Of a DNA stretch of 64,000 nucleotides, positions 19,997-24,887 are shown piece after piece. The notes under the pieces were generated by a model. It saw only the letters and a program-made list of their open reading frames with translations. It was not told the DNA's origin and ran no database searches. Position 1 is the first letter of the stretch; each line of letters starts with the position of its first letter. Origin of the DNA: an uncultured Flavobacteriales bacterium (GTDB taxonomy: Bacteria; Bacteroidota; Bacteroidia; Flavobacteriales; BACL11); NCBI GenBank assembly GCA_949372805.1, contig CASIBH010000006.1, positions 1-64,000 of the forward strand, in the 5' to 3' direction. Position numbers and translations under genes: made by a program.

Positions 19997-21599
19997 TAAT
20001 TTGTTTGTTTACCATAGATTTTAAAATTACTAGCATAACAGCTCCAATAACAATAATAGCCAGAGAATATACCGCAGACTCTACCATCATTTCTTCAATT
20101 GCAAACTGATATGTTTGAGTTGCTAAAGTATCAAAATTAAATGGTCGCAATATTAGTGTTATAGGAAGCTCTTTTAGTAGATCAACAAATGTTACAATAA
20201 ATGCGATTAAAAGGGCAAGTTTATTAATGGGAAAGTGAATTTTTCTAAGTGTTTTTAAAGGTCCTAAACCTAAGGTTTTTGCCGTCTCGTCAAAAGACTC
20301 AGGATGTTTTTCAAGACTCGATTTAATAGGGGACTTTCCCACAGCTAAAAAACGAAAAACATAAGCATAGATTAAAACAGCAAAAGACCCTACTAAAGAA
20401 AATGACTGTAAGGCTGGGGTTTTTGTAAACAGTAATATAACCGCTAGCCCAATAACAGCTCCAGGAATAACATACCCTAAAGAGGTTATTTGATTAATAG
20501 TCTTGTTTATACTAAGTTTTGAAATTTTTTCTACATATAAAAAAAGTATTGCCACACAGATTATTATAACAGATGAAATAGCAGAAACAGAAATAGAATT
20601 TATACTAAGAGTGAATAATTTTGAGAAATTAACATCTTTATAGTTAATTAAAAAATTAGTAACTATATACGATAAAGGAACAGCAAAGCCAATAAAAAAA
20701 GGAATAAAGCAAGAAAAGTATGCGTAAAAACGTTTGTTTTTATTTATAAATCTAAGTTTTTCAGTCGCTGAATTTTTTGAATAGTAAAATTTAGTTTTTT
20801 TAGAAAAAGTTTTTTGTAGAAATAAAATAACAAAAACAATAAGCAGTAGCAGGCAGGCTAGCTGAATTGCTGCCGTCTCATTTCCCATAGAAAACCATGC
20901 CCTAAAAATTCCTGTTGTATATGTATTGACGCCAAAATACTTAACGGCCCCATACTCATTTAACACCTCCATTATAACCAAAAAAAGCCCTGAAAAAATA
21001 GCTGGTCTAGAGAGAGGTAAAATAACCTTATAAAAAAGTTTTATTCCTGAAAGACCAAGGTTCTTAGACATGTTTATGTATGTTGACCCTATTAAACTAA
21101 AGGAAAGTCTACATGCTGTATAAATGTAGGGGTAAAGAGAAAGACCAAGAATGACTCCAAGAACTTCTATCTGTAAATAGTCAGCATTAAAAATCTCCGA
21201 TATAGAAGGGATATTCTTTCTGAGAAAAGACTGTAGTGGACCCGTAAAACTAAGTATATCACTATACGTAAAGGCCATTATATATGTTGGAATTGCAAGA
21301 GGGAGATAAAGTGCAATATCAAAAAATCGACGAAATCTAAAATCATAATTACTTACGAACCAAGCAGGAATTATTCCAAAAATTAAGGAAATAATACTTG
21401 TTATAAAAATAAGATAAAGAGTGTTTAGGCTGTAGTCAAGAAGAAGATTGTCCCATAAATATAAAAAGGCACTACCATCAATATTTAAAATATTTATAAA
21501 CAATAAAACAAGCGGAGCTAGTAAAATCGCTGAAACTATAAAGCTGATCAGCAGCCATCTTTTGTTTTCTGTTTTAAACAGTTTTTGGATTATTTCCAA
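19986..21599 (-). CDS. Fe3+ ABC transporter permease (FbpB-like, fused double permease)
   Basis: About 12 hydrophobic segments; two EAA-like motifs (ETAKTLGLGPLKTLRKIHFP; NMSKNLGLSGIKLFYKVILPLSRPA). Confidence 0.85.
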   Translation of the reverse strand: MEIIQKLFKTENKRWLLISFIVSAILLAPLVLLFINILNIDGSAFLYLWDNLLLDYSLNTLYLIFITSIISLIFGIIPAWFVSNYDFRFRRFFDIALYLPLAIPTYIMAFTYSDILSFTGPLQSFLRKNIPSISEIFNADYLQIEVLGVILGLSLYPYIYTACRLSFSLIGSTYINMSKNLGLSGIKLFYKVILPLSRPAIFSGLFLVIMEVLNEYGAVKYFGVNTYTTGIFRAWFSMGNETAAIQLACLLLLIVFVILFLQKTFSKKTKFYYSKNSATEKLRFINKNKRFYAYFSCFIPFFIGFAVPLSYIVTNFLINYKDVNFSKLFTLSINSISVSAISSVIIICVAILFLYVEKISKLSINKTINQITSLGYVIPGAVIGLAVILLFTKTPALQSFSLVGSFAVLIYAYVFRFLAVGKSPIKSSLEKHPESFDETAKTLGLGPLKTLRKIHFPINKLALLIAFIVTFVDLLKELPITLILRPFNFDTLATQTYQFAIEEMMVESAVYSLAIIVIGAVMLVILKSMVNKQINAS

Positions 21600-22618
21600 G
21601 CTGACTTATCAAAAATTTCGATAGCACTATTTCTGTGCACACCTAGTTGATTTAAGTCTAGGCTATCTCTTTTAAAATCTCCCCAGGACCCAACTATTTC
21701 AGCAGGCTTTACTAACGGATTTACAGAATACTCATAGCTAGTATTAACGTATCTATTTTGCGCCGAAACGCCTGTTAAGAACTCAACAAGCTTAATTGCA
21801 TTTTCTTTGTTTGGCGCATTTTTAGCAAGCCCTATTCCAGAGATATTTATATGACTTCCTCCTTCGTTTTCTCCTTGGTTTGGAAAGAATACCCCTACTG
21901 ATTTCCCGGCTTTAAGCTCCTCTTCTTTTTCAGAAGAAAGAAGAAGTCCAATATAGTAAGAGTTTACAATAGCAACATCTCCTTGACCAGCGGCAATAGC
22001 CTTTACCTGATCCCTATCATTGCCTTTAGGGTCTCTGGCAAAATTCTTAACTAAAGAAGTTGCCCAATCTAAGGCATAATCAGCCCCTTTGTTGGCAACA
22101 ATTGAAGAAAGAAGCGCCTGATTATAAGCGTTAGAAGAAGACCTAACCAAAACTCTTTCTCTCCACTTACTGTCTGCCAAGTCTGAGTAGGTGCTTAGTT
22201 CTTCCGCTTTTACTCGCTCTTTGCTGTAGACCATAATTCTCGCTCTGTATGTTATAGGAACCCAAAGCTTATTCAAGTCTTTAAGGTCTTCGCTTATGTT
22301 AGAGTTTATTATAGAAGACTCTAGGGGTTGTAATAAATTAAAGCTTCCTGCTTTTTGAAGTTTGCCAGCATCAACCGAAACAAATAGATCCGCCGGACTA
22401 TTTTCTCCTTCATTTTTTAGTCTTTCAATTAATTCGTCAGCATTTGCTTTTATTACATTTACTTTAATACCTGTTTCTAATTCAAAAGCTTCATATTGTT
22501 TTTCATCAACAGTATAGTGTCTCTGGCTATAAAGATTAACCTCATTAGATTTTTTAGTCTGATCTGAACAGCTTGAGAGGATAAGTATTGTTAAACAAAA
22601 TATGATTATATTTTTCAT
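21590..22618 (-). CDS. Fe3+ ABC transporter substrate-binding lipoprotein (FbpA-like)
   Basis: Lipobox LILSSC; VNLYSQRHYTVDEKQYEAFELETGIKVNVI; VNSYYIGLL; HINISGIGLAKNAPNKENAIKLVEFLT. Confidence 0.87.
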   Translation of the reverse strand: MKNIIIFCLTILILSSCSDQTKKSNEVNLYSQRHYTVDEKQYEAFELETGIKVNVIKANADELIERLKNEGENSPADLFVSVDAGKLQKAGSFNLLQPLESSIINSNISEDLKDLNKLWVPITYRARIMVYSKERVKAEELSTYSDLADSKWRERVLVRSSSNAYNQALLSSIVANKGADYALDWATSLVKNFARDPKGNDRDQVKAIAAGQGDVAIVNSYYIGLLLSSEKEEELKAGKSVGVFFPNQGENEGGSHINISGIGLAKNAPNKENAIKLVEFLTGVSAQNRYVNTSYEYSVNPLVKPAEIVGSWGDFKRDSLDLNQLGVHRNSAIEIFDKSAWK

Positions 22619-22637: not shown

Positions 22638-22663
22638 GTTTAATAAAGTTGAAAGTGCAAAAA
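22638..22663. repeat. Left arm of exact 26-nt inverted repeat
   Basis: GTTTAATAAAGTTGAAAGTGCAAAAA is the exact reverse complement of 22782-22807. Confidence 0.95.
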
Positions 22664-22688
22664 TATGGTTATTTAGAATAAATACAAA
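22658..22688 (-). promoter_or_regulatory. Predicted Bacteroidota-type promoter of the FbpABC-like operon
   Basis: On minus strand TTTG (22685-22688), N19, TATTTTTG (22658-22665), an exact match to TTTG-N19-TAnnTTTG. Confidence 0.7.
22670..22684. promoter_or_regulatory. Palindromic operator candidate
   Basis: TATTTA-GAA-TAAATA (6-bp arms, 3-nt spacer) lies between the -33 and -7 elements of the minus-strand promoter. Confidence 0.5.
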
Positions 22689-22708
22689 TAAAAGACTTGA
22701 TTAACTAA

Positions 22709-22739
22709 TTTAAAAACACAAAATTCTTTAGTATAATTG
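22709..22739 (+). promoter_or_regulatory. Weak Bacteroidota-type promoter candidate for the P19/Tp34-like gene
   Basis: TTTA-N19-TATAATTG upstream of ATG 22757 (one mismatch in each element). Confidence 0.35.
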
Positions 22740-22756
22740 CATTTAAAATAATCCTT

Positions 22757-23308
22757 ATGAAACTATTAGCCTTTATCCCAGTTTTTGCACTTTCAACTTT
22801 ATTAAACGCCCAAGTCTCAAAACCTGAGCTTGTAATAGGAGAAGAAAGGCTAGAGCCTGGAATTGTTTTTGTTTTTGAAGGAGCAATTAAGGACCATATA
22901 ATACCAGAGTCAATCCATTTGTCAGAAAGCGAAACAAATATTCATATTGAAGCTAGAGTAAATTGGGACACAAAAAATACCCCTAAAGGAACACCGCAAG
23001 GGGGCTTTATTCCTTATCTTCATATTTCAGCACAAGTAATAAATGAGAAAACAGGTTTAAGCACCTTTATAGACCTTCTGCCACATATTAATTTAATAGA
23101 TAATTTTCATTATGCAAGAAATATTTCATTGCCTGGAAAAATTTCTGATAATTATACAGTCAAGTTCAATATAGTAAAGCCAACAAATATTGATTTAGCC
23201 CTTCATAATGACTGGGTAAAAACTTATGGAAAGTCTCTAATTGAAAACAAATCATTTATTTATAAAGGAGTTGATTTTGAAGAGGTGGCAAAAGCTGATA
23301 GGAACTAA
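22757..23308 (+). CDS. Periplasmic P19/Tp34-family iron transport protein
   Basis: SESETNIHIEARVNWDTKNTPKGTPQGGFIPYLHISAQVINEKTG..LLPHIN..HYARNISLPGKISDNYTVKFNI resembles remembered P19/Tp34 sequences; signal peptide present. Confidence 0.75.
   Translation: MKLLAFIPVFALSTLLNAQVSKPELVIGEERLEPGIVFVFEGAIKDHIIPESIHLSESETNIHIEARVNWDTKNTPKGTPQGGFIPYLHISAQVINEKTGLSTFIDLLPHINLIDNFHYARNISLPGKISDNYTVKFNIVKPTNIDLALHNDWVKTYGKSLIENKSFIYKGVDFEEVAKADRN
22782..22807. repeat. Right arm of exact 26-nt inverted repeat
   Basis: TTTTTGCACTTTCAACTTTATTAAAC inside the signal-peptide coding region of the P19-like gene. Confidence 0.95.
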
Positions 23309-23429: not shown

Positions 23430-24887
23430 TTACTTCGCATTTACATGCGTTCTTAATAATCGTTTCTTTTCTTCTTGAACTGCAGGATGCTTTTTATGGC
23501 CCCATATTTTATCTCTGGCAGCTTTAGAGCTTTCTTGTAGGCCTACAATTGGCAGCGGATAGGTCTTTCCCATCAAAACACCACAAAAAGTCTGTTCCAT
23601 AGCCGTCATAGTCCAGGGCTCATGAATATATGCCGCTGGCACATTTGCTAATTCTGGAATCCACTTTTTTATAAACATACCCTTGGGGTCATGCTCTTTA
23701 GAGTTTTTGACAGGATTGTACAAACGAACGGTGTTTATTCCAGTCGTACCTGCCTGCATTTGAAACTGAGGATAATGTATTCCAGGCTCATAATCTAAAA
23801 ACTGACGTGCAAGATGATAGGTCCCCTCACGCCAATCTTGGTCCAAATTGAGTGTTAAAAAAGATACAACCATAGCGCGCATTCTAAAGTTAATCCAACC
23901 AGTAGATTCAACAGCTCGCATGCAAGCATCAATCAAAGGATATCCTGTAGTGCCTGTTTTCCAAGCTTTTATAAATGCTTCGTTTTTTTCATGTGGCAAA
24001 ATCTCATAACCTCTATTAATACACTCTGTTTCATAGCGACATTCCATTTCAAATTTTTGAATAAAATGACAATGCCAATGTAGGCGGGTAAGCATGGCTG
24101 AGAAGGCTTTGCTGTTTTTAGTGCCGTTGGGATGCGTTCCAATAAACTGAAAAGCTTGCTTAATACTCATGTTTCCCCATGCCAAATAAGGAGATAAACG
24201 ACTACAAGACACTCTGCTTTCCATGGGCTTTGATATATGTCTCTGGTAGTTAAATCCTCGTTGGTTAGTGAAAGAATTTAAGTACCTCCAGGCATTTTTT
24301 TCTCCAGGCGGTTGATAGTGACCTGGGTAATCTTTTAGTTGAGACTCTAACATTGAAGGCATTAAAAAGGGGTGCTCTAAATACGTTTCTTTGGAGATTG
24401 TATATTTGTTTTGAATGAGTGGTCTATGCATTTTAAGATGCCATTTTTTATTCCAACCTTGCCTATTTTCAATACCTCTTAAAATACCATCTCGTTGTGA
24501 CTCCTGCCACTTGATTTTATTAGAATTACAAAACTGTTTTATTTTTTTATCGCGCTCCCAAGAGCCTTTTATTCCGCTTTCTTGGTAGCTAAACACAGAA
24601 ATGATATTAAAGTCCTTAATTAAATAATTAAAAACATCAATAGCCTCTGCATAAAACAACTCAACTCGTCTGTTAAATTCACTTAAGACTTTATCTAAAC
24701 TACTTATTGAATGGTATACAAACTGCAAATGTCTTTGACTAGTATCCGGATACTCAATTCTAGAGGGTTCAAGCAGATAAATAATTAAATAAGGGATCCC
24801 AGCACATTCAGCCTTTAATAAAGGCGCATGATCTTGAGAGCGAAGGTCACGTTTTAACCAAACAATATTTATAGCCTTTGAGTTCAA
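23430..24887 (-). CDS. Cryptochrome/deoxyribodipyrimidine photolyase family protein
   Basis: [70 protein letters not shown]. Confidence 0.92.

Follow-up and report, generated by a model that had tools for sequence, protein, structure and literature searches.

An exact 26-nt inverted repeat in a divergent fbpA/P19 iron-uptake control region, best explained as a template-switch scar

The divergent control region between an FbpABC-like iron transport operon and a P19-like iron gene of an uncultured marine Flavobacteriales bacterium contains an inverted repeat that is real and non-random, and that is best explained as the scar of a template switch of an already known kind. The sequence from 22638 to 22663 is the exact 26-nt reverse complement of the sequence from 22782 to 22807, with 118 nt between them, as had been reported in a preliminary description of this DNA, and the identity breaks off sharply on either side of the arm. 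A search of the window (the whole 64,000-nt stretch analysed) and of the whole draft source genome (G000, 64% complete) for copies of the 26-mer with up to 3 mismatches returned the two arms only. In the 958 kb of the source genome on which the repeat background was measured, exact inverted repeats with arms 16-1000 nt apart otherwise reached 17 nt at most, and the other inverted repeats of 16-18 nt were mostly terminator-like, with loops of 3-4 nt. A third-order Markov sequence of 4 Mb, used as the null for chance occurrence, contained no repeat longer than 18 nt; its counts dropped about 3-fold per added base, which extrapolates to about 1e-5 chance repeats of 26 nt per 0.4 Mb. Chance origin is excluded, in agreement with the earlier judgement that a match of this length was very unlikely to be accidental.

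To the left of the control region, on the minus strand, lies the FbpABC-like iron ABC transporter, made up of an FbpA-like binding protein, an FbpB-like permease and an FbpC-like ATPase. The FbpA-like ferric-iron binding protein (21590..22618, minus strand; SBP_bac_8, 1.5e-21) is 91% identical in a sister species (G001). On the plus strand the P19-like periplasmic iron protein (22757..23308; PF10634, E 2e-31) is 78% identical in that species, and the original gene calls for both units were borne out. A photolyase/cryptochrome-like gene, named by eye, occupies 23430-24887 between P19 and a downstream sugar-kinase-like gene and is missing at the same place in the sister species (L002), reflecting either an insertion or a loss.

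Using the Bacteroidota promoter consensus (PMC6847099), the fbpA promoter was read on the minus strand as TTTG-N19-TATTTTTG, with the -33 TTTG at 22685-22688 lying 19 nt from a -7 element, TATTTTTG (22658..22665; consensus TAHHTTTG), that is conserved in the sister species. Its position agrees with the one proposed earlier, and the last 6 nt of the -7 box fall inside the first arm. The fbpA leader would be about 34 nt long if transcription started 4-5 nt past this box. On the plus strand TATAATTG (22732..22739), also conserved in the sister species, is the probable P19 -7 element. Arm 1 (22638..22663, minus strand), the probable donor, therefore covers those 6 nt, the start region and the first ~15 nt of the leader, and arm 2 (22782..22807, plus strand), the probable recipient, is its reverse complement and forms codons 9-17 of the P19-like signal peptide. 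The 118-nt spacer (22664..22781) holds the two promoters as well as the P19 start codon and has the identical orientation in the sister species. Both predicted mRNAs carry the identical 26-nt sequence in sense. The arms fold together strongly (z -6.3), a fold that the sister species lacks; since neither predicted transcript contains both arms, it would be relevant to single-stranded DNA only, and an mRNA hairpin was rejected on the same ground.

Within the same family, P19 was detected in 4 genomes out of 54, each time with fbpA as its divergent neighbor. The control region of the sister species is collinear with that of the source genome, in the same orientation and without rearrangement, and the alignment needs one 1-nt gap in the interior and none in the arms or outer flanks. 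Within this alignment the arm-to-arm match, 26/26 in the source genome, is 17/26 at the orthologous places. Arm 1 is identical to the orthologous fbpA leader at 22 of 26 positions and arm 2 to the orthologous P19 DNA at only 16 of 26 (62%), while arm 2 compared with the reverse complement of the sister's arm 1 again gives 22/26. Because the sister species conserves arm 1 but not arm 2, the fbpA leader is the probable older sequence, from which arm 2 would have been rewritten. The converse, with arm 2 as the older copy, was rejected on the conservation of arm 1: had arm 1 been the recipient, only 17/26 identity to the sister's arm 1 would be expected, rather than the 22/26 seen. The perfect identity of the arms, set beside fourfold sites of the flanking genes that are just 46-48% identical between the two species, places the event after their split. 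This polarity comes from one good outgroup and one genome of the source species. One point tells against it: P19 codons 1-8, beside arm 2, are identical to the sister species at 17 of 25 positions, so that arm 2 is hardly below its surroundings and does not stand out alone. The noncoding interior (22664-22756), which adjoins arm 1 and is about as well conserved, is identical at 80 of 92 positions (87%) against those 46-48% at fourfold sites, and the whole divergent control region thus appears strongly constrained.

Conservation in relatives had been named earlier as a check on the repeat, and the perfect form proved absent from the sister species, from two further genomes with the same divergent gene pair (G019 and G052) and from the other P19 orthologs compared. 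None of the other P19 signal peptides compared carries a copy of the arm, the best match being 17/26. We also considered whether a strong quasipalindrome already existed in the sister species, where the arms pair at 17 of 26 positions in register. This pairing looked strong against the local sequence and weaker against other signal peptides, as 8 of the 36 other P19 records, including two from the sister species, reach at least 17 when the offset is left free; it is suggestive at most and carries little weight here.

The inverted repeat is thus probably what a single, recent template switch left behind in this lineage, an event of the type described as inverted-repeat homogenization or a four-point switch. 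The repeat is perfect here and imperfect in the outgroup, the donor is conserved and the recipient changed, and the flanks are collinear. In the proposed sequence of steps, a strand end in the P19 signal-peptide DNA would pair, during DNA synthesis, with the fbpA leader some 120-145 nt away, up to 26 nt would be copied from that leader, and the strand would then go back to its own template. The outcome would be an in-frame replacement of P19 signal-peptide codons 9-17 with length unchanged; the peptide as it now stands, MKLLAFIPVFALSTLLNAQ, is still normal-looking. The outer TTTTT and TTAAA may already have been there and could have served as microhomology. The sister species already has the TTTTT flank, and relatives often show a TTTAA(A/C) stretch here, so that the templated core may be just ~15 nt. 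What we infer from this pattern is the mechanism of replication, the use of microhomology and a lack of any function. An inverted duplication or template switch had been among the hypotheses of the preliminary description, with P19 signal-peptide DNA copied into the fbpA leader; the type of event stands and its direction is reversed, the conserved fbpA leader being the donor and the P19 DNA the recipient.

Homogenization of inverted-repeat arms by template switching has been described in E. coli (PMC7202029), yeast (PMC8604942) and apes (PMC7954356). As in the E. coli QP reporters and the yeast cases, one arm has been converted into the reverse complement of its partner, with length kept and a lineage-specific, multi-nucleotide change in coding sequence. 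Here, however, the donor is a promoter and leader and the recipient a signal peptide, and the dimensions exceed those of the yeast study, in which the scan was limited to spacers of 70 nt and the example arms were 8-16 nt, compared with a spacer of 118 nt and arms of 26 nt at this locus. The great-ape four-point switches involve fragments of a similar order (median 12, maximum 128 nt) and likewise leave a single inverted repeat, although length was unchanged in only 5.5% of those events and is unchanged here.

Three other readings of the repeat were weighed against a template switch in the cell. We think it unlikely that the second copy is an artifact, made in vitro by template switching in the course of whole-genome amplification or PCR, or by mis-assembly. 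The source genome is a 64%-complete draft, and the main error of MDA is the inverted chimera, in which a 3' end switches to the nearby opposite strand at a short complementary stretch; one study put the frequency at about one junction every 22 kb (PMC1855051). Such chimeras, however, are junctions that join segments with an intervening deletion and do not go back, after 26 nt, to the flank they left, while the replacement here is in frame and of the same length, with flanks collinear on both sides. Moreover, no second such repeat was found in 958 kb, and the resulting P19 signal peptide is a sensible one. A shared sense-strand element, on which one sRNA or protein acts in both mRNAs and whose copy is kept by selection, seems quite unlikely. 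This idea had been raised in the preliminary description from the 26 nt that the fbpA and P19 mRNAs have in common, and it draws some strength from the leader copy, whose 85% identity to the sister species, compared with 46-48% at fourfold sites, indicates constraint. That part was upheld, but the conservation of arm 1 is partly due to the -7 box and start site, the P19 copy is confined to this genome and missing from every relative examined (the sister species, G019, G052 and the other orthologs compared), an Rfam search matched no family, and the genome has no further copy at up to 3 mismatches. That a single template switch carried a regulatory RNA element to a second gene, where it was then kept for joint post-transcriptional control of both transcripts, is in our estimate very unlikely.

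Geometry alone would also suit an inverton, in which a recombinase inverts 22664-22781 and so exchanges the promoters; invertons have repeats of 10-40 nt on either side of a short segment that carries a promoter (PMC11892184), and the 26-nt arms and 118-nt promoter-bearing spacer fit that description. We regard this hypothesis, put forward in the preliminary description, as extremely unlikely, and the evidence from relatives and from the genome goes against it. The arms are not conserved in relatives, which lack arm 2, and the spacer lies in the identical orientation in the sister species. Flipping it would, as was already pointed out from the sequence, strip P19 of its start codon, cutting the gene off from the ATG and codons 1-8 with no workable alternative means of expression. 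The recombinase search suggested at the time did not supply a dedicated enzyme: the genome, at 64% completeness, yielded a single tyrosine-type recombinase, an XerC/D-like one encoded on a different contig, and no serine recombinase; at this level of completeness the absence is weak evidence. A second, weak tyrosine-recombinase match overlaps a DEAD-box helicase gene and was set aside as spurious. The locus therefore shares with the invertible promoters of Bacteroidota the short inverted repeats around promoters, but differs from them in having neither a nearby recombinase candidate nor conservation, and in that inversion would destroy the start of one gene.

The region contains a second symmetrical element, which is more promising than the inverted repeat as a lead for co-regulation. 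This candidate iron box is a 23-bp dyad, TTATTTAGAATAAATACAAATAA (22669..22691), that lies between the fbpA -33 and -7 elements, is identical in the sister species and has similar counterparts between the divergent genes of G019 and of G052. In the sampled genome the three highest intergenic dyad scores belonged to this site and to two others (L108:2749 and L086:8343), each immediately preceding a DUF4856-imelysin-HTTM operon; a TonB receptor gene follows one of these operons. Imelysins have been tied to iron uptake (PMC3143127). The source genome contains a Fur homologue, and a search of it for the DtxR C-terminal domain found none. The dyad is probably an iron box controlling both fbpA and P19. 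The gene arrangement differs in other marine Bacteroidota (L010:304-1680, L016:2315-3537), in which P19 lies downstream of a gene identified by eye as SCO-like rather than diverging from fbpA; the first of these still has TATTTAGAATAAAT upstream of P19.

This locus offers a clear natural case, from an uncultured marine bacterium, in which a template switch would have rewritten about nine codons at once and in which the donor can be identified. Most of the question was decided by comparison with a single sister species. As this example suggests, promoters enclosed by an exact inverted repeat do not by themselves justify an inverton call.
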